A DNA stretch of 24,644 nucleotides from NCBI GenBank assembly GCA_003820635.1, contig RPOS01000292.1:1-24644 (forward strand), read 5' to 3'. The notes below the pieces were generated by a model that had not been told where the DNA came from, made no database searches, and saw only the letters and a list, made by a program, of their open reading frames with translations. Source of the DNA: Verrucomicrobiaceae bacterium (GTDB taxonomy: Bacteria; Verrucomicrobiota; Verrucomicrobiae; Verrucomicrobiales; Akkermansiaceae). Both the position numbers and the translations under genes were made by a program. Shown here piece by piece: positions 3,988 to 24,399 of the stretch. Numbering within the stretch: the stretch's first letter is position 1; each line of letters opens with the position of its first letter.

Positions 3988-3996
3988 GATTGATCC

Positions 3997-5080: not shown

Positions 5081-5093
5081 GATGCGCTCCTAA

Positions 5094-6382: not shown

Positions 6383-6408
6383 AAAAAAGGGGCCGAAGCC
6401 CCTTTTTT
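6383..6408 (-). terminator. Rho-independent terminator after the capsid gene
   Basis: A6-GGGGC-CGAA-GCCCC-T6 forms a perfect 5-bp GC stem extended by A/T pairs, 20 bases past the major capsid stop. It reads as an intrinsic terminator in both directions. It probably limits read-through from the heavily expressed capsid gene into the HNH and downstream virion genes, giving a graded transcript. Confidence 0.85.
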
Positions 6409-6427
6409 GCTACAAATCAACTACTTA

Positions 6428-7339: not shown

Positions 7340-7351
7340 GCTTCAGTCTCC

Positions 7352-8014: not shown

Positions 8015-8026
8015 GTGTAGCTCCTA

Positions 8027-9401: not shown

Positions 9402-9410
9402 ATACCCTCC

Positions 9411-9779
9411 TTAAGGGCGGCTAATGCCACGGGGATCAGCAACAACAGCCTCGATGCTGTCGTCAGACATGAGGCGATACTCCACCCCTCGGAAGGTAAA
9501 CCGCGTGCCGCTGTTGCTGCGGAACATCACGTACTCACCGGCGGAACACCACGGCCCATGCGGGAACCGCTCAGGGTCTTTGTATGCCTGCGAGCCCATG
9601 TCCAGCACCAGCCCGATGGTCGACAGCACCTTCTCGTAGTGCACAGTCTTGGCATCTTTAACAATGCCCGATTCATACGTCTCGTCGACCACAGGCAGGG
9701 CGATCAGCAGCATGTAACCGACGGGTTTCGGCAGTTGCTTCTCGATCTCTTCTTCAGTGAATACGGGCTCAGTCATCAT
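9411..9779 (-). CDS. GroES-like co-chaperonin
   Basis: The 122-aa product contains LPKPVGYMLLIALPVVDETY followed by ESGIVKDAKTVHYEK, matching the Cpn10 first strand and mobile loop (GIV for GroEL contact). AYKDPERFPHGPWCSAGEYV and RSNSGTRFTFRGVEYRLMSD, then DSIEAVVADPRGI, match the rest of the beta barrel. Phage Cpn10 homologues such as T4 gp31 work with host GroEL to fold capsid protein; a similar role here is inferred from the neighbouring head genes. The ATG at 9779 (or 9776) overlaps the upstream stop by about ten bases and has a GGA site. A TTG further upstream at 9803 is less likely. Confidence 0.8.
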   Translation of the reverse strand: MMTEPVFTEEEIEKQLPKPVGYMLLIALPVVDETYESGIVKDAKTVHYEKVLSTIGLVLDMGSQAYKDPERFPHGPWCSAGEYVMFRSNSGTRFTFRGVEYRLMSDDSIEAVVADPRGISRP

Positions 9780-9966
9780 CTCGTTCCAAGTAGTTCTGCT
9801 CAAGGTCTGTAATCGCTGCTACTGCGTGGGTCAGCCCTCGGACGACCCCACACAGCTCTTTATACGTTGCGTAATCCCCCGCCTTGCCTTCAGCGAGGTG
9901 ATTACTTATCCGCACACTCTCCCCCTCCAGATTGCTCCGGAGGGCTTCAAACACTGTCTTCGCCAA
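9769..9966 (-). CDS. Small conserved phage protein downstream of portal, TTG start, 65 aa
   Basis: Translation must begin at the TTG at 9966, immediately after the portal TAA (TAATTG). No ATG or GTG start is available in the N-terminal part, and a strong AGGAG site lies seven bases before this TTG, inside the end of the portal gene. The protein (MAKTVFEALRSNLEGESVRI, then GDYATYKELCGVVRGLTHAV) is a short helical protein with an acidic tail ending DLEQNYLERDDD. It resembles the small proteins that follow portal genes in many podovirus-like genomes. Its function is unknown; a head-assembly accessory role is plausible. Confidence 0.7.
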   Translation of the reverse strand: MAKTVFEALRSNLEGESVRISNHLAEGKAGDYATYKELCGVVRGLTHAVAAITDLEQNYLERDDD

Positions 9967-12453: not shown

Positions 12454-12473
12454 TGGGTCGGTCCTTAATTGGG

Positions 12474-13976: not shown

Positions 13977-14524
13977 TGTGCGGGGGTGGCAAACACGTCG
14001 TCAATAGTCTCATTGCGATGAGTCGGAGACGATGGCATCGTCATGTGCTCGCCTTCAATTACCTTGGACAGGCGCTCGCGCAACATCTGCTCCAGCTCTT
14101 CGGTTGGGCGATGGCGTAGCGTGATCTCGGCTTTTTCCGTGAACAACCCAACGTCGCTGATCTTGCCCAGCAACTCAAGGGCCTTAATCCGAATGCGTGG
14201 GTCGGAGTGGGCACTCTCCAGCAACAACTTGTTTGTGATGTACGTACGTAGCTGGACGGCAGACTCTACGACTTTGGTATCGTATTCTGAAAGGATTGCC
14301 TTCAGGTGCACCACCGTCCCCGGGCTTGAGAGGTCAAGGTCTGTGGCGTTCTGCGTACCCATAAACACAGACCGCGCTGTGGTCATGTCTTCGTCCGACA
14401 CCAGCACATTAGTCTCTAGTTCTGCCAGTGCTGCAAAGGCAGTATCGACGCGAGCTTGCAAGGTCTCAAACGTCGGCTGGTAATCGGAAAATTCAATGTC
14501 AGTATCTACGACTGGCGTATACAT
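13973..14524 (-). CDS. terS: Terminase small subunit (putative)
   Basis: The 183-aa protein precedes terL with an ATGA overlap and is the first gene of the minus-strand arm. Its middle is helical (VESAVQLRTYITNKLLLESA, then SDPRIRIKALELLGKISDVG), followed by LFTEKAEITLRHRPTEELEQ and a charged tail. This matches the oligomerisation and large-subunit-contact region of small terminases, although no clear DNA-binding HTH is seen at the N-terminus. The ATG at 14524 is preferred over a TTG six bases upstream; the ribosome site is weak. Assignment rests mainly on position next to terL and on the helical profile. Confidence 0.7.
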   Translation of the reverse strand: MYTPVVDTDIEFSDYQPTFETLQARVDTAFAALAELETNVLVSDEDMTTARSVFMGTQNATDLDLSSPGTVVHLKAILSEYDTKVVESAVQLRTYITNKLLLESAHSDPRIRIKALELLGKISDVGLFTEKAEITLRHRPTEELEQMLRERLSKVIEGEHMTMPSSPTHRNETIDDVFATPAQ

Positions 14525-14551
14525 AGGCAACCCGCACTAGGGTGAGGCTCG

Positions 14552-14579
14552 AATATAGCACGGTTCTACGTAAGCGCAA
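14552..14579 (-). promoter_or_regulatory. Candidate sigma-70 promoter for the late (terS) operon
   Basis: On the minus strand TTGCGC (14579-14574) and TATATT (14557-14552) are separated by 16 bp, which would start transcription about 20 bases before the terS ATG. The -10 box matches five of six consensus bases, the -35 only three of six. A late activator or phage factor may be needed; the nearby palindromes at 14595-14787 could serve that role. Confidence 0.4.
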
Positions 14580-14670
14580 GCCCGTATGGGTTAACTGAGT
14601 TAAGTTAGGCTTAGTCGTGGGCGAAATATATTTTTATGAAGGAGCTTAAGTTTACTTAAGGGGGCGTTAT

Positions 14671-14684
14671 CTGAGTTAACTTAG
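14671..14684. repeat. CTGAGTTAACTTAG palindrome, copy 1
   Basis: This 14-bp element is a palindrome with one mismatched pair around an AGTTAACT core. Identical copies lie 40 bp and 103 bp to the right. Confidence 0.8.
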
Positions 14685-14710
14685 CTTTTTCGGACACGCC
14701 CTATATTTTT

Positions 14711-14724
14711 CTGAGTTAACTTAG
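14711..14724. repeat. CTGAGTTAACTTAG palindrome, copy 2
   Basis: An exact repeat of the 14-bp element, preceded on the plus strand by CCTATATTTTT and followed by G, the same flanks as in copy 3. Confidence 0.8.
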
Positions 14725-14773
14725 GCTCGTTACTAAGTAAACTTAAGCGGCGTAGTGGGCGCGATATATTTTT

Positions 14774-14787
14774 CTGAGTTAACTTAG
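14774..14787. repeat. CTGAGTTAACTTAG palindrome, copy 3
   Basis: An exact repeat of the 14-bp element, preceded by GATATATTTTT. With its flank the conserved unit is about 25 bp when compared with copy 2. Confidence 0.8.
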
Positions 14788-14856
14788 GTAGGGTCGTGGG
14801 CTTTGAGTTTGCGAAACTCAGCACAAGCACAAGGGAGGAGTCACATCAGCCGGCGC

Positions 14857-14878
14857 GGGGGGTAGGGGTCGGGTGGGG
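14857..14878 (+). other. G-quadruplex-forming motif
   Basis: Four G-runs (G6, G4, G3, G4) separated by loops of only TA, TC and T meet the G3+N1-7 pattern on the plus strand. The motif lies about 47 bp upstream of the -35 box of the right-arm promoter. Formation in vivo is not shown by sequence. Confidence 0.6.
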
Positions 14879-14910
14879 TCGCGCCCTGGCCGTTCGTGCG
14901 CGCTGATCGG

Positions 14911-14923
14911 TCTAACGATTAGA
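14911..14923. promoter_or_regulatory. Palindromic operator-like element, site 1
   Basis: TCTAA-CGA-TTAGA lies one base upstream of the -35 box at 14925, so a bound protein would touch RNA polymerase. It is the first of ten copies of the dispersed palindrome in the right arm. Confidence 0.7.
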
Positions 14924-14924
14924 A

Positions 14925-14953
14925 TTGACATTCTGACTAGTAAAAGATATTAT
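14925..14953 (+). promoter_or_regulatory. Sigma-70 promoter for the right-arm operon
   Basis: TTGACA (14925-14930), a 17-bp spacer and TATTAT (14948-14953) make a near-consensus promoter. Expected transcription start is near 14960. An inverted repeat TGTAAGGT-N10-ACCTTACA (14963-14988) falls at the beginning of the transcript and could form a leader hairpin before the gene at 15030. Confidence 0.8.
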
Positions 14954-15029
14954 GTAGTCTGTTGTAAGGTTTAACGGTGCACCTTACAGCTCTTCACCTA
15001 AGCGCCCAGATATGACAGAGGAAACTATC

Positions 15030-15809
15030 ATGGATATTATTAAGACAATGCCTGCCGATACTCTGGCAACCTATCGCGCCCAATTTGAGAATGTGGGCAC
15101 TGCCACTGCGACCGCAATAGCGCGAGCAGATGTTGAGCGCGCTAAGATTATCAACGATCTTATGGATATTGCCCGCACTACTGGGGTTTCCCCGAAGGTC
15201 GCGACCGAAGATATTATGCGCGAGGTAGTGAAACCCTGCGCACGTACCAAGCCCGAGCAAGAAGAATTCAAGTTGCTAGAAAAAGCGGGGTCCATGCCGG
15301 CGACCCTTGCCGGGAAGCTCGGGTACAACATGGGGTTAGCCTACGGGCATAGCCTCGAGCTCGCATTTGCAAAGGGAATACCCTTTACCCCCTCGTTGTA
15401 CCACAATCACAAGAAAGAGCTCGCGGCCAAAAAACAGGCAGATCATGCGGAAAAGGTCGCGCAAGCGGAACAAGTGGCATCGGACAAGGCCGCGGAGGCG
15501 AAAGCCCTCGCAAGCAAGGCCGCAAAGGCGAAGGCAAGCGATGAAGTAAAGCTTGCCGCAGCACAAGCGAAGCTTGACGCGGAAAAGGCGCAGCAAGCCG
15601 TGCGCAAAGCGATTGATGCCGCGCCTGTCTCGCAGAAAACCGGCGGCCGTAAAGCCGCGCCAAAGTCCGGCCCGATAAAGGTCCTCACGCGTCACGAGGT
15701 GGCGCTGCATGCCACGGCCTTGGTTGCCATGCTGGAATCGATTGGCGAGCTGTCTGTGGCGTCTGAGGTGCGCGAGATTCTGGCAGATAACAATCTGCTC
15801 AGCATGTAA
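15030..15809 (+). CDS. Ala/Lys-rich coiled-coil protein, 259 aa, first gene of right arm
   Basis: The ATG at 15030 has an AGAGGA site about eight bases upstream; an in-frame ATG 18 bases earlier lacks one. The protein begins MDIIKTMPADTLATYRAQFE, has a globular N-terminal part to about residue 120, then a long Ala/Lys/Glu coiled coil (about 123-200: KKQADHAEKVAQAEQVASDK, KAAEAKALASKAAKAK), and a short C-terminal domain (VLTRHEVALHATALVAMLES). The composition resembles histone-H1-like or TolA-like helices, but no family is recognised with confidence. It is driven by the strong promoter at 14925 and is probably expressed early. A nucleic-acid-binding role is possible from charge; unproven. Confidence 0.7.
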   Translation: MDIIKTMPADTLATYRAQFENVGTATATAIARADVERAKIINDLMDIARTTGVSPKVATEDIMREVVKPCARTKPEQEEFKLLEKAGSMPATLAGKLGYNMGLAYGHSLELAFAKGIPFTPSLYHNHKKELAAKKQADHAEKVAQAEQVASDKAAEAKALASKAAKAKASDEVKLAAAQAKLDAEKAQQAVRKAIDAAPVSQKTGGRKAAPKSGPIKVLTRHEVALHATALVAMLESIGELSVASEVREILADNNLLSM

Positions 15810-15818
15810 AGCGCACTG

Positions 15819-15838
15819 CCCTGCCCGAAAGGGCAGGG
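15819..15838 (+). terminator. GC-rich hairpin after the first right-arm gene
   Basis: CCCTGCCC-GAAA-GGGCAGGG is a perfect 8-bp stem ten bases after the stop codon. No T-run follows, so it may be a weak terminator, an attenuator or an mRNA 3'-end stabiliser. Confidence 0.5.
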
Positions 15839-15839
15839 A

Positions 15840-15854
15840 TTCTAACGGTTAGAA
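15840..15854. promoter_or_regulatory. Palindromic operator-like element, site 2
   Basis: TTCTAAC-G-GTTAGAA is a perfect 15-bp palindrome placed between the hairpin at 15819 and the ribosome site of the 51-aa ORF. The outer base is T/A rather than G/C as in most other copies. Confidence 0.65.
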
Positions 15855-15867
15855 CTACGGGAAAATC

Positions 15868-16023
15868 ATGCTTGAATTACTCGCGTTGCTTCTTGAATGC
15901 CGCACTAGTGGCACCTTGCCCCCCGAGCTCTCGCGCCGGGTTGATACGGTGGTCAAAGATACCCTCGCACAATGCGATGCCCTGCTAGGGTGGCAGGAAG
16001 AGCTTGAGAGGCTTGACGCGTGA
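15868..16023 (+). CDS. Small ORF, 51 aa, unknown function
   Basis: An ATG at 15868 with a GGGA site opens a 51-codon frame beginning MLELLALLLECRTSGTLPPE and ending in an acidic helix (LGWQEELERLDA). The N-terminus is hydrophobic but short and carries an acidic residue, so a membrane segment is not convincing. The next ORF overlaps its stop codon (GTGA), which supports real translation. The gene is short enough to be missed by automatic calling. No family is recognised. Confidence 0.55.
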   Translation: MLELLALLLECRTSGTLPPELSRRVDTVVKDTLAQCDALLGWQEELERLDA

Positions 16024-16103
16024 GCGTAGGGCAGGAACTAGGCTGGCTCACGCTGGCGATCATGGCGGGCTTTGTGATTCTGGCATGGCTCTTTGAATGG
16101 TAG
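16020..16103 (+). CDS. Tiny membrane peptide, 27 aa, GTG start
   Basis: GTG at 16020 overlaps the TGA of the previous ORF (GTGA) and encodes 27 residues: a short polar N-terminus, then a single hydrophobic helix (WLTLAIMAGFVILAWLFEW). A strong terminator follows six bases after the stop. Overlap, one clean membrane helix and the terminator together support a real microprotein, perhaps acting on the host membrane. The function is unknown and chance coding is possible at this length. Confidence 0.5.
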   Translation: MSVGQELGWLTLAIMAGFVILAWLFEW

Positions 16104-16108
16104 GACAG

Positions 16109-16130
16109 GCCCGCTTCGGCGGGCTTTTTT
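16109..16130 (+). terminator. Rho-independent terminator
   Basis: GCCCGC-TTCG-GCGGGC followed by T6 is a textbook intrinsic terminator with a stable tetraloop. It closes the first right-arm transcription unit. Confidence 0.9.
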
Positions 16131-16277
16131 GCGCCCATCGATTTTGCCCGCGTCAGCGGGCGTGTCGTGGGCGAAACGTCATAGTAGTTAGTAGCGAGCG
16201 AGGGGCAGGCGAGCGGGCGCGAGGGCGTCATAGTGGCTGGGGGCGGGCGAGTGAGTGTATAATAAGATAGTAGTAGA

Positions 16278-16306
16278 TTTACAAATGGGTTAGGCGCCGT
16301 TATGAT
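16278..16306 (+). promoter_or_regulatory. Sigma-70 promoter with overlapping downstream operator
   Basis: TTTACA (16278-16283), a 17-bp spacer and TATGAT (16301-16306) predict a start near 16313, which falls inside the palindrome at 16312-16328. A bound repressor would block initiation directly. Confidence 0.65.
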
Positions 16307-16311
16307 GCAAC

Positions 16312-16328
16312 GGTCTAATCGTTAGACC
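16312..16328. promoter_or_regulatory. Palindromic operator-like element, site 3
   Basis: GGTCTAATCGTTAGACC has two 7-bp arms around TCG and overlaps the predicted transcription start. Its 3' end is three bases before the AAAGGAG ribosome site of the next gene. Confidence 0.75.
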
Positions 16329-16342
16329 TCAAAGGAGAAATC

Positions 16343-16687
16343 ATGTTTTCACGAACTGTATGGCCATTTAAAAACATGCAAGTGGGCGAGAGCTGCACCA
16401 TAGGCCCTGAACGCGCTGCGCGGGCTAAGACCTACTGCCACGTGTATGCGGCACAGGCAGGCAAGCGCATGACGTGGAAAACTGAGCGTGGGGGCAGTAT
16501 CACCGTGACTAGGCTGCCAGATCGCGCCACAACCCAGATAACCCTGACCGCAGACGAAGCAAGAGTACTGAAGGAGCTCTTCCCGAGCGCGGCAAGGCTG
16601 CGAGAGTTCTGCCGAATTATGGCCGGCAAGGTGAAGGCAACAGAGCTGCCGAACGGGTATATTAAACTAGAGAAAAGAACAGAATGA
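16343..16687 (+). CDS. Conserved small phage protein, 114 aa
   Basis: A strong AAAGGAG site precedes the ATG. The N-terminus, WPFKNMQVGESCTIGPERAA, with YAAQAGKRMTWKTERGGSIT and VTRLP downstream, matches a pattern common in phage proteins where a MxVGxS segment is followed by a basic beta-hairpin (GKR...T....GG..VTR). A C-terminal helical extension (TADEARVLKELFPSAARLRE) is added. The basic hairpin suggests nucleic-acid binding, but this is inference. It is a single-gene unit between its own promoter and the terminator at 16717. Confidence 0.7.
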   Translation: MFSRTVWPFKNMQVGESCTIGPERAARAKTYCHVYAAQAGKRMTWKTERGGSITVTRLPDRATTQITLTADEARVLKELFPSAARLREFCRIMAGKVKATELPNGYIKLEKRTE

Positions 16688-16716
16688 GTGTAACGCGTGT
16701 AACGTTTTGAGGCACT

Positions 16717-16747
16717 CCTGTAACGTGAAAACGTTACAGGTTTTCTT
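16717..16747 (+). terminator. Rho-independent terminator with 10-bp perfect stem
   Basis: CCTGTAACGT-GAAA-ACGTTACAGG followed by TTTTCTT ends the 114-aa gene unit. The stem contains the TGTAACG word that also occurs as free repeats nearby. Confidence 0.85.
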
Positions 16748-17133
16748 ATAGTGCAAGTGACTGATTTAACAGAGAGAGAGAGAGATAAATTAATTATTTG
16801 TTAGTAGTTGTAGCGCTGTTACGCTGTTTTTGGGGAGTGCGGCTGGGAAATTCCTTTTTCCCCCTTTCCTTGCTGGTTATAGAACATATCTTTCCGTGTT
16901 TTCGCTGAAAAGGGCTCCGGCAGCCACCCACCCTTTTTTGGCGTAACGTCACATCGATACCCCGTTGATTCTAAAGGCTTTTTAGACTAAGTGCGTAACC
17001 TATATTTTTTCAAGTCATTGATTTTAGGCAACAAAAAAGTGACGCTGTAACGTTTTTTTGGTTATAAAGTACTACGAGATTCTTTCATAACTATCTTCAC
17101 CTTGTTCATAATACTTCCCACTTACCCCTATAC

Positions 17134-17162
17134 TTGACAAACACGCCACCGTGTGATATACT
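17134..17162 (+). promoter_or_regulatory. Consensus sigma-70 promoter for the HTH regulator
   Basis: TTGACA (17134-17139), a 17-bp spacer and TATACT (17157-17162) predict a start near 17169. A weaker second promoter (TTGCTT-N18-TATTAT, 17169-17198) would start at the palindrome at 17206. Both lie upstream of the 114-aa HTH gene. Confidence 0.8.
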
Positions 17163-17205
17163 TGTATCTTGCTTCGTACGTATTTATCCTAGTATTATCC
17201 CCTCC

Positions 17206-17237
17206 GGTCTAACGATTAGACCACCCTGTATAGGGTG
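17206..17237. promoter_or_regulatory. Palindromic operator-like element plus hairpin, site 4
   Basis: GGTCTAACGATTAGACC (17206-17222) is followed at once by CACCCT-GTAT-AGGGTG (17222-17237). The pair lies in the leader of the HTH gene, 17 bases before its ATG, consistent with autoregulation. Confidence 0.75.
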
Positions 17238-17253
17238 CACAAAAGGACTCAAG

Positions 17254-17598
17254 ATGACCCCCAACCTCAAGCTTGAACTGTTGCCGACTCTCGACGGTTT
17301 ACCTTTACCCCTACAATATATAGAAGGCGTGCGTTATGTCATGCTGACAGGCCGCCTCTACCCGCTAGCGGAGTTTGTTGCCACTCTCCAGCACTACTCC
17401 AACCCCGAGGACATGCCCACCCTCTCGCTTGCCACCCTACCCACGGCCACGCGGGACCAAGATATTTACAAGCGCGTCACGTACGAGGGCCAGAGCATGG
17501 CGAAGGCTGGTGCCGTGCATGGCCTATCCCGCCAACGCGTTAAGCAGATCATTGACCACCTACGGGCCACCGCTGTAGCCCACCTACTTGACAAATAG
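17254..17598 (+). CDS. HTH DNA-binding protein, KorA/TrfB-like (putative repressor)
   Basis: The ATG at 17254 has an AAAGGA site and follows the leader palindrome; a longer frame back to 17134 would start on the -35 box and is rejected. The 114-aa product has an N-terminal domain (GLPLPLQYIEGVRYVMLTGR) and a C-terminal helix-turn-helix at about residues 71-100: YKRVTYEGQSMAKAGAVHGL followed by SRQRVKQIID. The spacing Q-S-x-A-x-A...H-G-L-S-R-Q-x-V resembles KorA/TrfB repressors of plasmids, which bind a short palindrome (GTTTAGCTAAAC). Sigma region-4-like HTH is the alternative. It is the best candidate to bind the ten GTCTAAC-type palindromes. Confidence 0.7.
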   Translation: MTPNLKLELLPTLDGLPLPLQYIEGVRYVMLTGRLYPLAEFVATLQHYSNPEDMPTLSLATLPTATRDQDIYKRVTYEGQSMAKAGAVHGLSRQRVKQIIDHLRATAVAHLLDK

Positions 17599-17616
17599 GC
17601 TAGTATATGATATAAT
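17588..17616 (+). promoter_or_regulatory. Perfect consensus sigma-70 promoter
   Basis: TTGACA (17588-17593), a 17-bp spacer and TATAAT (17611-17616) overlap the last codons of the HTH gene. The start is expected near 17623. The leader then contains a CCGCCTA-TTGC-TAGGCGG hairpin (17652-17669), the palindrome at 17668 and the hairpin at 17685. Confidence 0.88.
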
Positions 17617-17667
17617 ACATACTCAATACTGAGTTCTCGACCACAACCCAGCCGCCTATTGCTAGGC

Positions 17668-17700
17668 GGTCTAACAGTTAGACCCACCCTGCATAGGGTG
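17668..17700. promoter_or_regulatory. Palindromic operator-like element plus hairpin, site 5
   Basis: GGTCTAACAGTTAGACC (17668-17684) is followed by CACCCT-GCAT-AGGGTG (17685-17700), then AAGGA and the ATG at 17721. It has the same order as site 4 and lies about 45 bases after the predicted transcription start. Confidence 0.75.
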
Positions 17701-17720
17701 ACCACTACTAAGGACACATC

Positions 17721-18494
17721 ATGACATTGCCCACTGCATACGACTTACTTGCCGCCCACTACGACAAACACAAATACAAGCGAGGTGCCTACGTAGGCTC
17801 CGCCCCGCTAGACGCTCACAAACGACGCAAGACAAACCAGCGCGTGACCGTCAGCCCTCTGTGTGCAGAGGTCGTGTGCCACAAAACCCCCATCCTTCGA
17901 GCCTATCCCGACGGTCGAGTGCAGCTCGACGCCAGCTCGTGGCGCACTAACGTCACCAAGGACACGCTCAACAGCGCCCTCGCACGTATCAAACTGCCGT
18001 CTCGAATCTATTCACACAAGCGGTTCGGACTCAGCCAGTGGCACCTGTACAGCCCCACCCACGGCCACTACGCCTTTTACGATGGGATGTATCTCAACCA
18101 ACACGGCACACCCCGTCGATCCCTTCCGTTCAAGCGCAGGTGTATCGACACCACCCAATCCCGACCCTTCGCCGCTTCTGCACGGGAGTTCCGCTCAGTG
18201 TTCCCTGTGCTGCACGCTGGGGTGCCCGACACTAAAGACGCTGCCGCTGCCAACGATACGCAACAGCTCTATTACCAGCACAAGCTATATGACTCCCGAG
18301 CTGTTGCCCTTGCTATCACCACTCAGCCTGAGCTGTGGCCTGCCGTTGTTGCCGCGTACAGTCAACTATCTATTCACATCATGTGGCAACAGCGCAAGCT
18401 GCCAGCCAAGGACACCCTCAACCACATCCTCACTAAAGCCAAGGAGCACATGTACCACACGATAGAAACCCTCGTCACTCACATCCCTGCCTGA
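17721..18494 (+). CDS. Conserved phage protein of unknown function, 257 aa
   Basis: An AAGGA site precedes the ATG. Residues about 48-140 carry HKTPILRAYPDGRVQLDASS, then WRTNVTKDTLNSALA and QWHLYSPTHGHYAFYDGMYL. This matches a widespread phage domain in which a DG-rich strand is followed by W.T..TK...N, then W.L and F.DGM. That domain has no established biochemical role. The N-terminus is basic (KHKYKRGAY) and the C-terminus is helical. It is the first gene after the perfect promoter at 17588. A 21-bp piece of its 3' part is repeated just after the stop. Confidence 0.7.
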   Translation: MTLPTAYDLLAAHYDKHKYKRGAYVGSAPLDAHKRRKTNQRVTVSPLCAEVVCHKTPILRAYPDGRVQLDASSWRTNVTKDTLNSALARIKLPSRIYSHKRFGLSQWHLYSPTHGHYAFYDGMYLNQHGTPRRSLPFKRRCIDTTQSRPFAASAREFRSVFPVLHAGVPDTKDAAAANDTQQLYYQHKLYDSRAVALAITTQPELWPAVVAAYSQLSIHIMWQQRKLPAKDTLNHILTKAKEHMYHTIETLVTHIPA

Positions 18495-18509
18495 GTCTAA
18501 CCGTTAGAC
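18495..18509. promoter_or_regulatory. Palindromic operator-like element, site 6
   Basis: GTCTAA-CCG-TTAGAC starts on the base after the TGA of the 257-aa gene. No hairpin follows; instead a 21-bp sequence copied from within that gene lies next to it. Confidence 0.7.
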
Positions 18510-18510
18510 C

Positions 18511-18531
18511 CAGTCAACTATCTATTCACAT
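18511..18531 (+). repeat. 21-bp direct repeat of coding sequence at 18359
   Basis: The bases from 18511 to 18531 are identical to 18359-18379 (beginning CAGTCAACTATC), which encode part of SQLSIH in the 257-aa protein. The second copy lies in the leader of the ATPase gene and its last part (ATCTATTCA) is repeated once more. Confidence 0.75.
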
Positions 18532-18559
18532 ATCTATTCATCACCACTAAGGACACACC

Positions 18560-19624
18560 ATGAAAGTCACACTGCAACAAGCTGCCACCCTCGTGCAGAC
18601 CTGCGGACACACCAATACGTTCCTCCTGCGCGGTGCCCCGGGCATCGGCAAATCGAGCATCCTCACGTCCCTTGCACGTCACATGCCGGACTACCACCCT
18701 GCGTACATCGACTGCGCTAACCTAGACCTAGGCGACCTCGGGCTGCCTATCATTGACCGACCTGCCCACGCCATACCCACCACGACCTACGCCCCGAACG
18801 TACGGTTCGGTGCACACCAGCCACGCCCCGTGCTTATCATGCTCGACGAGCTGGGCAAGGCGTCCCGGCCGGTGCTTAACATGCTGTTGCCGGTCATCCT
18901 CGAGCGCAGGCTAGGCGACCATCCCCTGCCCCCGGGCTCTATAGTCTTTGCCACGACTAACCTCGACACTGACGGCGTGGGAGATAACATCCCGGCTCAT
19001 GCGTACAACCGCATGACTGTGCTGCCTATTGCCAACCCCACGGCAGAGGAGTGGATCAACTGGGCCACATCCTCCCCTCACAACGCCATCGCAGCAGAGG
19101 TGCTGGCCTTCGCCCAAGAATATTCCCAAGTGTTCGAGTGTTATGCCGACGACCCCACGACCAAGAACCCGTACATATTCAACCCCCTCAACAACCAGAC
19201 CCGTGCCTTCTGTAGCCCTCGGTCTCTCGCTCATGCCTCACACATCATCACGCATCGCCACACGCTAGGCGAAGCTACACTACCTGCCCTGATTGGCACC
19301 GTGGGTGAGTCTGCTGCCCGCGACATGGACGCCCTGCTGCGGCTGTCTGACAAGCTGCCGCCCACCGAGACTATTACCGAGCACCCGGACACTGCCCCAC
19401 TGCCCCCGGACACGGCCAGTTACTTTATCTTGGCCTTCAGGCTGGCGATGGACACGACCCGCACGACTATCGCCCCTGTCATGACGTATATCAACCGATG
19501 GGAGTCGTTCGAGGCCCGGGCGCTGTACATCACCACCGTGGCGGGCAACCGTGACAAGGCCCCGATGGCCTGTGCCGACTCGCTGTTCCGGCGTGCAGCG
19601 TCGGATATGGGCAAGTACTTCTAA
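18560..19624 (+). CDS. MoxR-type AAA+ ATPase
   Basis: The 354-aa protein carries Walker A GAPGIGKS (25-32), Walker B VLIMLDE (91-97), sensor-1 ATTN (131-134) and an arginine-finger-like R151 in AYNRM, in MoxR/dynein-type AAA order. These ATPases work as chaperones or remodelling factors and are usually paired with a VWA-domain protein, here the product at 22512. The pair is split by ten small genes rather than adjacent. An AAGGA site precedes the ATG. The TAA stop is embedded in the next palindrome. The C-terminal half (from about 230) has no recognised motif. Confidence 0.87.
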   Translation: MKVTLQQAATLVQTCGHTNTFLLRGAPGIGKSSILTSLARHMPDYHPAYIDCANLDLGDLGLPIIDRPAHAIPTTTYAPNVRFGAHQPRPVLIMLDELGKASRPVLNMLLPVILERRLGDHPLPPGSIVFATTNLDTDGVGDNIPAHAYNRMTVLPIANPTAEEWINWATSSPHNAIAAEVLAFAQEYSQVFECYADDPTTKNPYIFNPLNNQTRAFCSPRSLAHASHIITHRHTLGEATLPALIGTVGESAARDMDALLRLSDKLPPTETITEHPDTAPLPPDTASYFILAFRLAMDTTRTTIAPVMTYINRWESFEARALYITTVAGNRDKAPMACADSLFRRAASDMGKYF

Positions 19625-19650
19625 CCGTTAGACCCACCCTGTATAGGGTG
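19620..19650. promoter_or_regulatory. Palindromic operator-like element plus hairpin, site 7
   Basis: TCTAACCGTTAGA (19620-19632) includes the TAA stop of the ATPase gene. The hairpin CACCCT-GTAT-AGGGTG (19635-19650) follows. No convincing -35/-10 pair lies close upstream. Confidence 0.7.
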
Positions 19651-19669
19651 CACCAGCATGGAGACCACT

Positions 19670-19951
19670 ATGACACAACACACACCCGGGCCGTGGCACG
19701 TCGGCGTTAAACAAGCTGAAAAGATCATTTACGACGCTAGCGGCTGGGCAGTGGCGAATGCCACGGTCTACCACGGCGAGAATGATGCAAAAGCAAACGC
19801 TCGCTTGATCGCCGCTGCGCCTGACTTGTTGGAGGCGCTGAAAACGCTGCAAAGCATGGCGTCTACGTTTCCAAACGAACTTCACAAAGATCATCCGGAT
19901 GTAGTCGCAGCCCGTGCCGCCATTGCCCGAGCAACAGGAGATAACCAATGA
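19670..19951 (+). CDS. Small phage protein of the HTPGPW / AAPDLLEAL family, 93 aa
   Basis: The start is the ATG at 19670, seven bases after GGAG; an ATG 12 bases upstream has no ribosome site. The protein begins MTQHTPGPWHVGVKQAEKII and contains NDAKANARLIAAAPDLLEAL, both hallmarks of a very common phage/prophage protein of unknown function. The C-terminus is a short helix (DVVAARAAIARATGDNQ). It is followed by an ATGA overlap with the next gene. The AAPDLL element also occurs in the protein at 20350. Confidence 0.8.
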   Translation: MTQHTPGPWHVGVKQAEKIIYDASGWAVANATVYHGENDAKANARLIAAAPDLLEALKTLQSMASTFPNELHKDHPDVVAARAAIARATGDNQ

Positions 19952-20172
19952 ACTTAATCGAAGAGGCCACGATAGGCCAGCACTACATCTGCCCCGTGGA
20001 GTACGGCGACGTGACCGGACTGACTGATCACGAGGAGGCCCAGCTCAACCAATGGCTAGCCCACTACCCCGGCGCCACGTTCGTATTCGGAGATGAGGAT
20101 GAGTTCGCCCGGTGTGAGATCACCGGGCTAATGGGTAACTGTGTGAAGGTGAAGATATATGAAAGCGCATGA
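19948..20172 (+). CDS. Conserved small phage protein, 74 aa
   Basis: The ATG overlaps the previous stop by four bases. The protein is acidic and has a distinctive C-terminal half (FVFGDEDEFARCEITGLMGN, then CVKVKIY) in which DEDEFARCxITGLxG is a pattern seen in small phage proteins of unknown role. It has no membrane segment and only two cysteines in the C-terminal part. It belongs to the densely overlapping operon from 19670 to 21261 and is probably expressed early. The function is unknown. Confidence 0.65.
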   Translation: MNLIEEATIGQHYICPVEYGDVTGLTDHEEAQLNQWLAHYPGATFVFGDEDEFARCEITGLMGNCVKVKIYESA

Positions 20173-20353
20173 ACGAATGCTCTACACGGCTTTTTTTGTA
20201 ATGTTAGCTGCGCATGTGGGCCTTTTAGCCCTATGGATAACAAATGGGGCAAGCCTGCTCGTGATGTCACTAAACACTGCGCTTTCTGGCCTTGTTGGTT
20301 TCACCTGCGCTGTTGTTGTTGATTATTGGAAACGTAACCGGAGATCAATATGA
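20159..20353 (+). CDS. Small inner-membrane protein, two helices, 64 aa
   Basis: MKAHERMLYTAFFVMLAAHV opens with a short charged end and two hydrophobic helices (about 9-28 and 33-54: LLVMSLNTALSGLVGFTCAV), then a basic tail KRNRRSI. Positive ends and a short loop suggest both termini lie in the cytoplasm. It overlaps the previous gene by 14 bases and the next by four. It could be a holin-like or superinfection-related membrane protein, but location in the accessory arm, away from late genes, argues against the main holin. Confidence 0.65.
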   Translation: MKAHERMLYTAFFVMLAAHVGLLALWITNGASLLVMSLNTALSGLVGFTCAVVVDYWKRNRRSI

Positions 20354-20583
20354 AACCCAAGTGTGACTGCCTTAATTTCTGCGGTGACGACCCGCACATC
20401 GACAAGGGGCTGGTGCGACCGTGCCCGACCTTCCAGCAGGAGACGGCTAGGAAGCGATTGCACGACGCAGCACCTGACCTGCTCGCCTCGTGCAAGGAGT
20501 TGATTAACTGTGCTGACCATAACCGGGACATGGCCGAGATACGTAGGGCGCGTGCAGTAATACGTCAAGTGGAGGGGAAATGA
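20350..20583 (+). CDS. Small phage protein with AAPDLL element and Cys-rich N-terminus, 77 aa
   Basis: The N-terminus, MKPKCDCLNFCGDDPHIDKG, has three cysteines in seven residues and a fourth at CPTF, which may bind a metal. The C-terminal half, KRLHDAAPDLLASCKELINC, carries the AAPDLL signature of the gene at 19670, then a helix (EIRRARAVIRQVEGK). It overlaps both neighbours by four bases (ATGA). It looks like a fusion of a short Cys motif with the common AAPDLL helical unit; the function is unknown. Confidence 0.65.
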   Translation: MKPKCDCLNFCGDDPHIDKGLVRPCPTFQQETARKRLHDAAPDLLASCKELINCADHNRDMAEIRRARAVIRQVEGK

Positions 20584-20912
20584 AAGCACATGAGCTGCTG
20601 ATGTTCGCCGCTAACACTATCAAGGGCGAGTACCCGGAGGAGCAGTGGCCGGACTACCACGTGCCCGAGATGGAGCGCGCTGCCGCCGTCCTGCCTCAGC
20701 TGACCGACAACATCGAGAAGCTACTCAAACTGAACGCCGAGCGGGAGGAAACAGTGCGGAAGATGATACGCCTGACTCTGGCCTGTATGCCCGGATCGAA
20801 AGAGTACGTACGTCTTAATCTCAGCTCCGATTCTTACCAGAAGAAGCAGCATACAGAACGACGCAAGAAGTTAATCCAATCCCTTGAGGAGTATGCAAAT
20901 GAAGGCAAGTGA
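20580..20912 (+). CDS. Hypothetical helical protein, 110 aa
   Basis: The ATG overlaps the previous stop by four bases. The protein is mostly helical and charged: MKAHELLMFAANTIKGEYPE, then EMERAAAVLPQLTDNIEKLL, then KQHTERRKKLIQSLEEYANE. The first residues MKAHE match those of the membrane protein at 20159, possibly by chance. The end of the gene contains the AGGAG site of the next gene. No family is recognised. Confidence 0.6.
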   Translation: MKAHELLMFAANTIKGEYPEEQWPDYHVPEMERAAAVLPQLTDNIEKLLKLNAEREETVRKMIRLTLACMPGSKEYVRLNLSSDSYQKKQHTERRKKLIQSLEEYANEGK

Positions 20913-21261
20913 ACTGACAGGTATGGCGCTCAACCTAGCGGTTGATCTTGCCGAAGGGTGGCAGCTAGTCACCGCCACAGACAACGCAGGTAGCTACCCA
21001 TACCTGATGAAAGGAGACAAATATAAAGACCCTAAAAAGTCACGGTATGCGTCCAGTTGGATGCACGCAGGGCCGATCATCGAGCGGGAGAAAATTTCAG
21101 TGGCTTATGAGCCTTCATTGCTTTACGACGATTCATGTCGCTGGAAAGCACTCTTCCCAATGAGTGACAGAGAGCATGAGTACGGCCCAACCCCCCTCAT
21201 TGCAGCCATGCGTTGCTACGTCGCCTCAAAACTGGGCGACGAGGTAGACGTGCCGTTCTAA
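20899..21261 (+). CDS. NinX-like phage protein (DUF2591, ABA sandwich)
   Basis: The ATG at 20899 has AGGAG seven bases upstream; an ATG at 20893 is too close to it and a TTG at 20884 precedes it. The protein starts MKASELTGMALNLAVDLAEG and contains SSWMHAGPIIEREKISVAYE and EYGPTPLIAAMRCYVASKLG, the three hallmark segments of NinX/DUF2591 proteins found in lambdoid and many other phages. The length of 120 aa is normal. The role in infection is not known. The TAA stop is supplied by palindrome site 8. Confidence 0.85.
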   Translation: MKASELTGMALNLAVDLAEGWQLVTATDNAGSYPYLMKGDKYKDPKKSRYASSWMHAGPIIEREKISVAYEPSLLYDDSCRWKALFPMSDREHEYGPTPLIAAMRCYVASKLGDEVDVPF

Positions 21262-21286
21262 CCGCTAGACCACCCTGTATGGGGTG
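21257..21286. promoter_or_regulatory. Palindromic operator-like element plus hairpin, site 8
   Basis: TCTAACCGCTAGA (21257-21269) has one arm mismatch and includes the preceding stop codon. The hairpin (21271-21286) keeps its stem although A is replaced by G, because T and G can still pair as RNA. Confidence 0.65.
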
Positions 21287-21310
21287 CCAATTATTACCAA
21301 GGACACAATC

Positions 21311-21541
21311 GTGAAACTACGTAAACCCGGTGGGCAACCACCGTTTCGGGCGGACTATGGGATATACATCAAAGAGCTGCTTTCTACCATTCCGGCCACG
21401 TTTGCAGTAACTAGCAAGCGACATGCTGCCAGTGTGCGGTTTTTGTACAAGCTGGCGGAGTACCTAATGAGTGAAGAATACGCAGCTAAATCAGCCAAAG
21501 CTCTGGCCAAGAAAAACGGAGATCACCATGCTACGACTTGA
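21311..21541 (+). CDS. Small protein with GTG start, 76 aa
   Basis: By analogy with the other leaders (palindrome, hairpin, AAGGACAC, start codon) translation should begin at the GTG at 21311, eight bases after AAGGA; a GTG at 21284 lies inside the hairpin. The protein is basic: KLRKPGGQPPFRADYGIYIK, then ELLSTIPATFAVTSKRHAAS, then an Ala/Lys-rich helix. No family or catalytic motif is recognised. It overlaps the next gene by 14 bases. Confidence 0.6.
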   Translation: MKLRKPGGQPPFRADYGIYIKELLSTIPATFAVTSKRHAASVRFLYKLAEYLMSEEYAAKSAKALAKKNGDHHATT

Positions 21542-21695
21542 GACAACATCAAACGGACGCACGATTGTGCGGTTACACAAGGACTGGAACCCGACACGGA
21601 TAGGCCGAGCCTATACGCCACGGCCACAGATGTATGACCACCAGCGTGACCTGACACGCTTACAGACAGCACTACTTAAGGAGGCCAAGCAATGA
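21528..21695 (+). CDS. Small basic protein, 55 aa
   Basis: The ATG at 21528 has GGAG six bases upstream and is preferred over a GTG at 21471. The protein begins MLRLETTSNGRTIVRLHKDW and is Arg-rich with Tyr/Pro in the middle (RAYTPRPQMYDHQRDLTRLQ). It overlaps the acidic protein that follows by four bases (ATGA). The strong charge contrast (basic 55-aa protein before a very acidic 135-aa one) is notable, but no function can be assigned. Confidence 0.55.
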   Translation: MLRLETTSNGRTIVRLHKDWNPTRIGRAYTPRPQMYDHQRDLTRLQTALLKEAKQ

Positions 21696-22099
21696 GTGAC
21701 TATCTAAATGTTGACGAGCTACGGGACAGAGTGTCCGAGCTAGAGGATGAGCGCGATCAGTTCCTCGATGAGACGTGCGAGGAGGCTGGCATCGACGAAG
21801 ACCACGACGACTACAACAACCTGCGCGAAGAGACTGCCGAGGTATGGGAGAAACAACAGCCCGAGGGTCAGGAGTACGCCAAGCTAATCGACATTATCGA
21901 AGAGGTAGGTAGTGCCGACTTTCTCATTCATGAGAGTCATTTCAGCGACCATGTGCGGGAGATGCTGGAGGACGGAGGCGACGTGCCCAAGAAGTTGGCG
22001 TGGTACATCGAGATCGACTGGGAAGCTACCGCAGAGAACATCAGATCAGACTATTCCACCATTGAGATTGACGGACAGACTTATTACTACAGGGACTAA
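21692..22099 (+). CDS. Very acidic protein with ArdA-like C-terminus (possible DNA mimic)
   Basis: Of 135 residues about 42 are Asp/Glu and about 11 Lys/Arg. The C-terminal part, WYIEIDWEATAENIRSDYST followed by IEIDGQTYYYR, resembles the end of ArdA-type antirestriction proteins and of many phage genes annotated as antirestriction (IDWE.AA..L..DY...E.DG..Y). ArdA proteins mimic DNA and inhibit type I restriction enzymes; the acidic composition would suit that, but the N-terminal half is a coiled-coil-like acidic helix, not a full ArdA fold. AAGGAGG precedes the ATG. The assignment is tentative. Confidence 0.65.
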   Translation: MSDYLNVDELRDRVSELEDERDQFLDETCEEAGIDEDHDDYNNLREETAEVWEKQQPEGQEYAKLIDIIEEVGSADFLIHESHFSDHVREMLEDGGDVPKKLAWYIEIDWEATAENIRSDYSTIEIDGQTYYYRD

Positions 22100-22101
22100 T
22101 C

Positions 22102-22455
22102 ATGAACAACGTAGAAAAAACCGCATTGGATCGTGCTGTGCTGCTGCTCAACTCCATCAAGGCAAAGTACAAGATCATCTCCCCAGACGGCACGGAGTAC
22201 GGCGAGCTTGTGCTGGCCCCCGTCAAAACAAAACGTGTCTCGGCGCATCCGATTGGGGAGATGAGTAACTACTACCGACCAATGGTGATAGATATGCAGC
22301 CGGGCGATATGCGCATTGTGCCTGCGGGTAAATATGAGCTCGAAGGACTGCGCGGCACCATGTCTGGGTGGTTCACTGCACGTTGGGGTAAAGGCGCCGT
22401 TATCACCTCAGTCAACAAGCTCAATAACACTATTGAGGTGCTTCGCGTGGTCTAA
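22102..22455 (+). CDS. Conserved phage protein with DNA-binding-like C-terminus, 117 aa
   Basis: The N-terminal helix (NNVEKTALDRAVLLLNSIKA) is followed by NYYRPMVIDMQPGDMRIVPA, then ELEGLRGTMSGWFTARWGKG and AVITSVNKLNNTIEVLRV. The YY.P...M.PGD...VP and LRG..S.W....WG.G..I threads recur in many environmental phage proteins of unknown role; the Trp/Arg/Gly-rich segment suggests nucleic-acid contact. The TAA stop lies inside palindrome site 9, and a CTCAATA-ACAC-TATTGAG inverted repeat overlaps its last codons. Confidence 0.65.
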   Translation: MNNVEKTALDRAVLLLNSIKAKYKIISPDGTEYGELVLAPVKTKRVSAHPIGEMSNYYRPMVIDMQPGDMRIVPAGKYELEGLRGTMSGWFTARWGKGAVITSVNKLNNTIEVLRVV

Positions 22456-22465
22456 CCATTAGACC
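22449..22465. promoter_or_regulatory. Palindromic operator-like element, site 9
   Basis: GGTCTAACCATTAGACC includes the TAA of the 117-aa gene. It is not followed by the CACCCT hairpin. The ATG of the metallopeptidase/VWA gene is 47 bases downstream. Confidence 0.7.
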
Positions 22466-22511
22466 TGCTTCGCATCACGCTAACTACCAAGGAAACCACT
22501 AAGGAACAACC

Positions 22512-23699
22512 ATGCAAGTTCAAGACCGTATCAACAAGGCGAAGATCGCCATCATGAGACACCCACGCTTCTGCCGGTACGCCGGCATCATGGCATGTGG
22601 CAAGCTCACTATCACGGACACCATACCCACCGCTGCGACTGACGGGTGGAATGTCATGGTCAACCCCGAGTTCGTCTCCTCACTCACCGACCCACAACTG
22701 CGCCTGCTCATCCTGCACGAGCAGCAACACAAAGCCTACCGCCACCTGCGGGTATGGCGCTCACTCATCAACGAGAATGCCCAGCTCGCTAACATTGCGA
22801 TGGATCACTTCGTGAACCTGACCCTGATGGACATGAACGGCACAGATGACTTCCTCGCTATGCCCGCCCTAGGTGTGCAGCCTGAGCCTAAGTACCGGGG
22901 CTGGTCAGTCGGTCGTATCTTTGCCGACCTCAAGAAGAACCCGCCTCCTACCCCACCCCAGTCGTTCGACGAGCATCTGCCCGACAACGCACCCCCACCC
23001 GACGCCGATACATCCGACGCCGATACATCCGACGCAGCGCAACAAGCGTTCGACGACAAGCGCATCAAGGAGATCGACCAAGCGCTACGCCAAGGCGAGA
23101 TACTTGCCAAGCGACGTGCTGCCCAGATGGGCCTCGACAATACGCCCTCATTCGGTGAGCTGCTGCACCCTGCCCGTAACTGGCGTGAGGTGCTGCGTGA
23201 GTTTGTGAGTGAGACGTGCACAGGCCGTGACGAGGCGACATGGCGCAGACCTAACAGACGGTACTTAGACGCGGACATTTACCTGCCGTCTATGGTGAGC
23301 ACTACTATGACGCGCTTGGCTGTCGTGTTCGACACCAGCGGGTCGTGCTTCGGCACGGACATTGCCACGCGGTTCGTATCCGAGCTGGCTGTCATCATCG
23401 AGCAGGTCAAGCCCACGTACGTAGACGTGATGTATGTCGACACTCGCGTTGCTGCCCACCAGACCTTCGAGCACGGACAGTTTGCCGTAGCAGACCTGCA
23501 ACCCCGTGGCGGTGGCGGCACAGACCTGCCCGTTGCGTTCGACTACATGCACGCCAAGAACATCAAGCCTGACGCCTGTGTTGTGCTGACCGACGGCGAG
23601 ACGCCGTTCGGCACCCCACCCGGCTACCCCGTGCTGTGGGCACTCACTAGTCTAACGATTAGACCACCCTACGGCACCACCGTGCACATCGGAGACTGA
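22512..23699 (+). CDS. HExxH metallopeptidase-like / VWA domain protein (DUF2201 type), MoxR partner
   Basis: The 395-aa protein has an N-terminal domain with HEQQH at residues 69-73 (LRLLILHEQQHKAYRHL), matching the HExxH zinc motif of the DUF2201 N-terminal domain. A Pro/Asp-rich linker (about 143-177, with a duplicated DADTS) follows. The C-terminal VWA domain has MIDAS residues DTSGS (274-278), T337 in GGGGTD and D361 in LTDGE. Proteins of this type pair with MoxR ATPases; here the ATPase is at 18560. The combined activity is unknown, perhaps metal-dependent protein remodelling. AAGGA precedes the ATG. A copy of the regulatory palindrome lies inside the coding sequence near the end. Confidence 0.85.
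   Translation: MQVQDRINKAKIAIMRHPRFCRYAGIMACGKLTITDTIPTAATDGWNVMVNPEFVSSLTDPQLRLLILHEQQHKAYRHLRVWRSLINENAQLANIAMDHFVNLTLMDMNGTDDFLAMPALGVQPEPKYRGWSVGRIFADLKKNPPPTPPQSFDEHLPDNAPPPDADTSDADTSDAAQQAFDDKRIKEIDQALRQGEILAKRRAAQMGLDNTPSFGELLHPARNWREVLREFVSETCTGRDEATWRRPNRRYLDADIYLPSMVSTTMTRLAVVFDTSGSCFGTDIATRFVSELAVIIEQVKPTYVDVMYVDTRVAAHQTFEHGQFAVADLQPRGGGGTDLPVAFDYMHAKNIKPDACVVLTDGETPFGTPPGYPVLWALTSLTIRPPYGTTVHIGD
23650..23664. promoter_or_regulatory. Palindromic element inside coding sequence, site 10
   Basis: GTCTAACGATTAGAC matches site 4 exactly over 15 bases but is read in frame as part of SLTIRP, 35 bases before the stop of the VWA gene. The CACCCT stem that follows has lost its partner arm. 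Confidence 0.7.
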
Positions 23700-24085: not shown

Positions 24086-24265
24086 ATGACTAACGCCTGG
24101 GACGACTTACCCAATGCCAAGCATATTGACCGAGTGCTGGCACACACTGCGGCACATCCGAAGAAATGGGCCGCTGCTTGGGACGCTGCTCGGGACGCTG
24201 CTCGGGCCGCTGCTTGGGACGCTGTTCGGGCCGCTGCTCGGGACGCTGCTTGGGACGCTGCTTGA
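24086..24265 (+). CDS. N-terminal part of the AWDAARDAA repeat protein, 59 aa up to TGA
   Basis: GGAGA lies seven bases before the ATG. The peptide MTNAWDDLPNAKHIDRVLAH is followed by repeats of A-W-D-A-A-R-D-A-A and ends at a TGA (24263-24265) in the middle of the repeat. If no read-through occurs, this is the product made. Confidence 0.55.
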   Translation: MTNAWDDLPNAKHIDRVLAHTAAHPKKWAAAWDAARDAARAAAWDAVRAAARDAAWDAA

Positions 24266-24399
24266 GCCGCTGCTCGGGACGCTGCTCGGGACGCTGCTCG
24301 GGACGCTGCTCGGGACGCTGCTCGGGGCGATGCTTGGGACGCTGCTCGGGACGCTGCTTGGGGCGATGCTTGGGCCGCTGCTCGGGACGCTGCTCGGTG
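24169..24399 (+). repeat. 12-bp coding tandem repeat (GCTGCTCGGGAC and variants)
   Basis: About 230 bp are built from a 12-base unit with third-unit variants (TGG for CGG, GCC for GAC, GGCGAT). Because the unit contains no stop in most frames, long spurious ORFs appear on both strands here. The array encodes A-A-R-D and A-A-W-D units. Confidence 0.9.

Follow-up and report, generated by a model that had tools for sequence, protein, structure and literature searches.

Lineage-specific palindromes at early promoters and gene starts suggest joint control of early genes by a phage-made protein in a family of uncultured phages

The 24,644-nucleotide stretch analyzed here (the window; contig RPOS01000292.1 of assembly GCA_003820635.1, filed under a Verrucomicrobiaceae bacterium) carries ten copies of a short palindrome, TCTAANNNTTAGA, on its early right arm, and relatives among uncultured phages carry, at kept positions, palindromes whose sequence and spacing vary by lineage. 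These sequence comparisons suggest a family of uncultured phages in which a phage-made protein governs the early genes jointly and changes along with its targets. On balance, we lean slightly toward the reading that the palindromes are operators of one phage-encoded dimeric regulator, for which the product of the first early gene is the candidate, that this regulator shuts off the early arm, and that protein and operators have diverged together.

RESULTS

Ten copies of one palindrome on the early arm. Nine copies of TCTAANNNTTAGA in the window are perfect, and a tenth, TCTAACCGCTAGA, has one mismatch; all ten lie within positions 14911 to 23663 (Table 1). Bases 1 to 14910, the structural arm, contain only four matches, each with two mismatches. 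With up to two mismatches allowed, the whole window has 15 matches, whereas 100 shuffles averaged 4.8 and never exceeded 13, and in a de novo search with no motif supplied, this type was the top recurrent palindrome, with a score of 52 versus a maximum of 13.1 in 60 dinucleotide shuffles. An initial annotation, made from the letters of the window alone, had described ten TCTAA/TTAGA palindromes on the right arm and none on the structural arm, and both statements agree with these counts. Its list of 3-base centers was correct, and its coordinates were within 2 bases of ours, the shift arising because outer arms were counted; the site at 21257, to which it ascribed the shared perfect arms, is imperfect, and the longer arms of its title, GGTCTAA/TTAGACC, are complete at only 4 of the 10 sites. 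By the gene calls of our own script, the next start lies 14 to 51 nt downstream of each of sites 2 to 10.

Relatives keep the positions and replace the sequence. Relatives were collected from IMG/VR as 67 terminase loci and 29 ATPase loci, including several records of about 64 kb; L036/L069 and L041/L068 are each two views of one contig. The nearest record compared has 55% of sampled words in common with the window; it covers only 11.9 kb, and the TCTAANNNTTAGA motif is absent from it even when one mismatch is allowed. The window terminase (TerL) has 2,663 listed matches in named phages, all below 60% identity and the best at 46.9%; a megablast search against named phages gave no match, and a TerL search in bacterial genome contigs found none. 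Of the 76 loci of 6 kb or more that were anchored on the terminase or the ATPase, 41 contained a recurrent palindrome with a score of at least 22, far above shuffles. Several loci with lower scores cover little of the early arm, and G006/L009, in which this arm is covered, scored only 8 to 10. No recurrent palindrome was found in 58 loci collected with another anchor or in 5 stretches of named phage records, and 60 shuffles of four relatives reached a maximum of 10.7. The best palindromes of DSL-LC04 and HTVC023P, the top-listed TerL records (45,000 and 48,001 bases), scored 5 and 14, under the threshold; DSL-LC04 reportedly appears in a paper whose title speaks of metagenome-assembled genomes. 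A literature search that left most subscription journals outside showed, among the entries listed, no palindromes of this kind in other phages. The MoxR/VWA gene pair was rejected as the cause of the palindromes, as CRP-7, Littlefix, and Vibrio 1.026.O, 3 of the 191 ATPase-bearing named phage records, have no recurrent palindrome in the stretch examined.

Near relatives share the motif of the window. At least 15 arm-and-spacing types occur among the relatives, and close relatives differ in half-site or spacing. Examples are TCTAA-N3, TCTAA-N2, TCTAACGTTAGA (N2; G003 and G005), ATCTAA-N3-TTAGAT (G008), and TCTAAGCCTTAGA (G004). Types with a center of N include TTTTAAC-N-GTTAAAA (L018), ATGTAAT-N-ATTACAT (L079), TCCCGTA-N-TACGGGA (L027), TTCGTAC-N-GTACGAA (L090 and L092), TTCATAC-N-GTATGAA (L087), TACTGTC-N-GACAGTA (L083), and TTCACAC-N-GTGTGAA (L084 and L086). 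The initial annotation had proposed conservation in related phages as a test of its idea; what is kept is the position, with the sequence replaced, and this combination is stronger than plain conservation. The distance from site 10 to the next start is equal in G002, G005, L070, and L071 (the L071 copy has one mismatch). Each of these four and G003 has its own palindrome at this place, the end of the VWA gene, and by eye the residues ahead of the conserved end differ between the window and G003. In the N2-type relatives G003 (34775), G005 (41134), and G010 (6791), the codons behind (L)LML(D) in the ATPase read TCTAATGTTAGA, which is a perfect site in coding DNA at the same place.

Sites are tied to promoters and gene starts. 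Five relatives of about 64 kb have 58 perfect sites between them, all within spans of 13.7 to 20.3 kb. For a promoter survey, we took, in the site-bearing arm of 29 phages, some of them closely related, every early-strand match of 10/12 or better, and sites with at most one mismatch. A site lies within −120 to +110 of 57 of the 62 sigma70-type promoters found. Counted by site center, 16 site-promoter pairs fall at −70 to −36 (2.8 expected), 31 at +21 to +65 (3.8 expected; 25 of them at +36 to +53), and 10 at +66 to +110 (3.4 expected), with 4 at −120 to −71 (3.4 expected), none at −35 to −8 (2.0 expected), and 1 at −7 to +20 (2.4 expected). Fifteen of the 16 pairs at −70 to −36 involve the leading promoter, the remaining one being the second promoter of G010. 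Sites are thus found chiefly at −42 to −67, nearly always of the leading promoter, or at +27 to +65 of other promoters. When 22 less related phages were considered, 32 of 46 promoters had their own palindrome in these two main intervals, versus 15 of 716 promoter-motif pairs (2.1%) with the palindromes of other phages. Viewed from the sites, 15.9% of 246 perfect copies have a promoter of at least 10/12 in the two intervals (control, 0.1%); of the 9 strong reverse-strand promoters in these arms, 3 have a site nearby. In the window, site 3 covers the predicted start of a promoter with a 10/12 match, as the initial annotation had noticed. The first 1,200 bases of L015 contain a copy of its palindrome GGTAAGGCTTACC inside the −35/−10 spacer of the leading promoter, in addition to one upstream.

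A second association is with gene starts. In 25 phages with 222 perfect sites, 111 of the sites are followed within 75 nt by a Shine-Dalgarno sequence plus ATG (19% for random positions), 19 belong to the −35 class (4% for random positions), and 92 belong to neither. Orthologues tell the same in part: a site stands close to the start in 23 of 27 genes for the MoxR-type ATPase, 17 of 27 VWA genes, and 14 of 18 genes for the 257-amino-acid protein, with 20% for a random position, and the genes for a 114-amino-acid protein (5 of 8) and DNA polymerase (3 of 14) serve our reading less well than the ATPase. The confinement of the sites and their ties to promoters and gene starts support the coordinate control of the early arm that had been proposed from the window.

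The palindrome is probably read as DNA. Judged from sequence, recognition is probably at the DNA level, because site 1 is upstream of the promoter of its would-be transcript and because the half-sites vary independently. The inner bases of TCTAA-x-N-y-TTAGA combine freely (CA, 23; CG, 22; TA, 12; TG, 7; Fisher P = 0.42), with 14 of 78 sites that have other pairs, 9 of them the G-C of G004, left out of this count. As a paired RNA stem would disfavor C-A, free combination fits a symmetric protein dimer on duplex DNA, and dimeric DNA recognition is very likely.

The first early gene as a candidate. An open reading frame (ORF) behind site 1 begins 69 to 108 nt past the −35 box in 28 loci. These were obtained by scanning 58 terminase loci and choosing by eye 33 that showed a leading promoter; L020, L024, and L034 had no ORF, and L025 and L036 were dropped as the ORF found was another one, so that in L036/L069 another ORF lies between the promoter and the first gene. 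The first-gene profile matches 48 genome or locus entries, duplicates included. At lower similarity, the gene also sits behind site 1 and its promoter in the ATPase loci L083, L086, L087, L090, and L092 (core profile, E = 0.00026 and probability 42), and a large protein set contains 84 homologues, all nameless or labeled "hypothetical protein." The first gene of G008 (L030) has no match among named phages. AlphaFold2 returned a confident helical model of the window protein (pLDDT, 90; pTM, 0.64), with the predicted order of a long helix, a helical core (residues 55 to 115), a coiled-coil-like pair, and a C-terminal hairpin. A Foldseek search of the PDB with this model found no solved structure at an E value of ≤0.001, and neither Foldseek nor VIA provided a usable fold, the best VIA rows matching long helices; the best viral structure match is an uncharacterized protein of an uncultured phage (E = 0.0021). 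This is a helical family without known relatives. Across 27 phages, half-site distance correlates with first-gene distance corrected for TerL (0.47; P = 0.0005), the value being 0.47 for the core and lower for the ends (0.14 for the C-terminal part). The regulator is likely to be phage encoded, and the chance that the first early gene product is the site-binding factor seems about even.

Other features of the window. The left arm encodes, on the minus strand, the large terminase and other long ORFs, which are taken for structural genes by their arrangement. The right arm, on the plus strand, opens with the 259-amino-acid gene at 15030 and includes genes for a small helix-turn-helix (HTH) protein (17254), a 257-amino-acid protein (17721), the MoxR-type ATPase (18560), and a VWA/metallopeptidase-like protein (22512). 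A second, hairpin-forming repeat, ACCCTG(T/C)ATAGGGT, is located directly behind 4 of the 10 sites (0.01 expected), at 17223 to 17236, 17686 to 17699, 19636 to 19649, and, with one mismatch, 21272 to 21285. The same hairpin follows the G003 site at 34150, and a scan of viral contigs, in which near records were possibly left out, gave no match to a site followed by the hairpin start CACCCT. Between the terminase side and the first early gene, the divergent region 14581 to 14796, perhaps an origin or late promoter region, contains repeats that include CGCGATATATTTTTCTGAGTTAACTTAGG and the inverted repeat GCTTAAGTTTACTTA. Positions 24168 to 24397 hold 19 copies of the 12-bp unit GGGACGCTGCTC, which in one frame encode an Ala-Arg/Trp-Asp-rich repeat; similar proteins are present in L074.

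TABLE 1 Palindromic sites, predicted promoters, and genes for candidate binders in the window
Feature	Position	Strand	Remarks
Site 1, TCTAACGATTAGA	14911–14923		1 bp short of the −35 of the leading early promoter; center at about −43
Predicted promoter of first early gene	14925–14953	+	TTGACA-17-TATTAT, 11/12
First early gene (259 amino acids), candidate site-binder gene	15030–15809	+	Homologues at the corresponding place in many relatives
Site 2, TCTAACGGTTAGA	15841–15853		14 nt ahead of start at 15868
Predicted promoter	16278–16306	+	TTTACA-17-TATGAT, 10/12
Site 3, TCTAATCGTTAGA	16314–16326		Covers predicted start of 16278 promoter (center at about +7); precedes start codon at 16343
Predicted promoter	17134–17162	+	TTGACA-17-TATACT with TG, 11/12
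Site 4, TCTAACGATTAGA	17208–17220		Center at about +45 of 17134 promoter; precedes 17254
Small HTH protein gene, rival binder	17254–17598	+	Weak Sigma70_r4, HTH_28, Mor, and KORA matches, all below cutoff
Predicted promoter	17588–17616	+	TTGACA-17-TATAAT with TG, 12/12
Site 5, TCTAACAGTTAGA	17670–17682		Center at about +53 of 17588 promoter; precedes 17721
Site 6, TCTAACCGTTAGA	18496–18508		Precedes MoxR-type ATPase gene at 18560
Site 7, TCTAACCGTTAGA	19620–19632		Includes stop codon of ATPase gene; precedes 19670
Site 8, TCTAACCGCTAGA	21257–21269		One mismatch; precedes 21311
Site 9, TCTAACCATTAGA	22451–22463		Precedes VWA/metallopeptidase gene at 22512
Site 10, TCTAACGATTAGA	23651–23663		Inside the last part of the VWA coding sequence; next start (23701) 37 nt downstream

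DISCUSSION

In the mechanism that we propose, the regulator would bind as a symmetric dimer with one half-site per subunit. At the leading early promoter, one operator would stand immediately before the −35 box; others would lie mostly at +36 to +53 behind the remaining strong host-type promoters, and further ones in the short spaces ahead of internal gene starts. Host polymerase would fire the early promoters soon after infection, and the regulator, as it accumulates, would block initiation and, at downstream operators, elongation, with the copies at internal gene starts acting as roadblocks, until the early arm is off. The regulator's own promoter, with its operator upstream, might respond differently, through weaker repression or activation, and joint divergence of protein and operators would produce the lineage-specific codes. 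Repression appears moderately favored over activation because the promoters are near consensus, and hence need no activator, and because operators are found downstream of the start; the copy within the promoter spacer of L015 also speaks for repression. As to its purpose, early shutoff is more likely than prophage maintenance because no integrase, resolvase, ParB, or ParA was found (PF00589, PF00239, PF02195, and PF13614) in nine records of relatives, which may be incomplete. PF00940 (T7-type RNA polymerase) gave no match in these records, nor for its control.

A number of observations weigh against this reading. Five of the 62 strong promoters have no site, a promoter scoring 8/12 or better stands in the two main intervals for only 25% of the 246 perfect sites (control, 7%), and in the five long relatives 13 strong promoter matches fall outside the arm that carries the sites. 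Often, site 1 is not perfect: within the 40 bp upstream of the −35 box, a perfect palindrome with 6-bp arms is present in 17 of 28 loci, and 2 of these 17, in L028 and L061, are not of the type of their lineage. With regard to the first early gene, no named family or solved fold backs DNA binding, the only matches being weak ones to unnamed PHROGs. TerL distance given first-gene distance also correlates with half-site distance (0.43), so that linkage could account for the covariation and the first gene is not singled out, and the half-sites were assigned by visual inspection, in some phages on the basis of site 1 only. A homologue of the first gene occurs without a clear palindrome in G006/L009 and L029, and no homologue was detected in the palindrome-bearing L053, L055, L081/L082, L089/L091, L096, L050, and G009, nor in six short contigs (L070, L072, L074, L076, L077, and L079). 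In L010 and L013, the first genes are similar, yet the spacings are N3 and N2. Finally, 9 of the 14 sites outside the inner-base count are the G-C of G004, which do pair, and an upstream site 1 would suit an activator as well, though its distance varies (−42 to −67).

Two alternatives concern the way in which the sites act. That the same operators are bound mainly by an activator, site 1 being close to the class II position and the copies farther downstream having another effect, is unlikely; site 1 is upstream of the −35 box in all loci examined by promoter, often at −42 to −47, but 31 site-promoter pairs have the site 27 to 65 bp downstream of the start, the promoters are near consensus, and the distance of site 1 is variable. 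Many sites directly precede a ribosome binding site, and four window copies are followed by the second hairpin-forming repeat, as might be expected if the palindromes were RNA hairpins in leaders that serve stability or translation. This is nevertheless highly unlikely in view of the position of site 1 upstream of its promoter, of C-A inner pairs that are as common as C-G pairs, of the weak stem that N2 forms would give, and of the lack of an Rfam match in the window.

Other alternatives replace the first-gene product as the binder or the role of the sites. The small HTH protein, which the initial annotation had put forward, has a recognizable HTH (Sigma70_r4, E = 0.00037; HTH_28, 0.0033; KORA, 0.18; all below the cutoff), and its gene follows site 4. 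In an iterated profile search, it was found in the site-bearing G002, G003, G005, L003, L036/L069, L074, L078, L080, and L008 but not in the site-bearing G004, G008, G010, L018, and L038, so that a general factor would be another protein; KORA matched in only one of nine relatives, below the cutoff. This candidate is thus improbable. HTH80, an 80-amino-acid Xre/Cro-like HTH protein (L113:13754–13993), is present in G002, G003, G004, G005, G007, and G008, and relatives of it occur in at least 554 stretches of virus contigs; its recognition helix seemed to follow the palindrome type. It was rejected as a general reader, as 0 of 58 loci of at least 6 kb (of 80 kept relatives) had a palindrome score of at least 22, in a test that is one-sided because the loci come from other phages and cover only the stretch around the HTH80 gene. 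ParB-type and MatP-type sites, too, are palindromes of about this length in dispersed positions, and the sites described here stand at gene boundaries; even so, a centromere-like, DNA-organizing, or recombination-boundary role is extremely unlikely, as the sites are tightly linked to promoters and neither ParB_N or AAA_31 matches nor an integrase or resolvase was found in the nine relatives. Binding by a host transcription factor has a precedent in the host protein SrpA, which binds palindromes in phage K5 promoters (PMC5945682). It is very unlikely here, since close relatives differ in half-site or spacing, at least 15 types exist, and the sites keep orthologous positions while changing together.

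If the operator reading with the first-gene product as its reader is correct, a recognition code between protein and DNA could be derived from natural variation alone, many different repressor-operator pairs would be on offer, and one could ask what makes phages with no visible lysogeny genes change an immunity-like code again and again. A speculative reading, which we consider doubtful though worth stating, is that these phages, which have no recognizable lysogeny genes, use a dispersed operator code read by a new helical DNA-binding family encoded by the first early gene, and that code and reader are replaced as a set under selection of the kind that would keep co-infecting relatives from silencing each other, i.e., immunity-type specificity without lysogeny. 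Temperate mycobacteriophages are known to have dispersed operators that act on initiation and elongation, and plasmids have a related form; the present case adds a wide uncultured lineage, symmetric sites, a repeated geometry relative to host-type promoters, and a natural series rich in operator variants.

Among known systems, the SAS/ESAS repeats of cluster K mycobacteriophages are found where some of the genes start, and about half come with inverted repeats; like the sites described here, they are kept at orthologous genes with a consensus for each phage. SAS is an asymmetric 13-mer, GGGATAGGAGCCC, for which the accessible text describes no tie to sigma70 promoters (PMC3203893). The window has no match to GGGATAGGAGCCC at up to two mismatches. 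OB sites are dispersed over the IncP plasmid. The KorA/KorB regulon of these plasmids has palindromic operators of similar length (OA, TGTTTAGCTAAACA; an OB oligonucleotide contains TTTAGCGGCTAAA) and exerts long-range silencing (PMC11790492). KorB is of the ParB type, whereas PF02195 (ParB_N) matched in none of the nine records, and the window has no OB-like TTTAGC-N-GCTAAA at up to two mismatches; as for KorA (TrfB), the window HTH protein matches KORA weakly, and one of nine relatives does so at an E value of ≤1. MrpR of the Bacillus prophage SPbeta resembles the proposed regulator in being one repressor with a 15-bp site, SPBRE, at various intergenic places (PMC10516654). The fold of MrpR is that of a tyrosine recombinase, and its role is to maintain prophage silence, whereas here PF00589 matched in none of the nine records and no such fold match was obtained. 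Stoperators of cluster A mycobacteriophages, the sites of the L5 repressor, are asymmetric 13-mers that are read by a monomer, lie mostly in one orientation, and occur throughout the genomes of temperate phages, whereas the sites described here are symmetric and, in the five long relatives, restricted to the early arm, and the nine records, which may be incomplete, have no integrase. As the sites lack the asymmetry and genome-wide spread of stoperators, ParB_N had no match in the nine records, and OB-like and SAS sequences have none in the window, we do not file the system as a member of any of these groups. By analogy, it nonetheless works most like cluster A stoperators, with likenesses also to KorA/KorB, SAS/ESAS, and MrpR/SPBRE: as with stoperators, copies are placed at promoters and many are in short intergenic spaces, and the stoperator consensus differs by phage type and is matched to the repressors (PMC6550527, PMC9283540).

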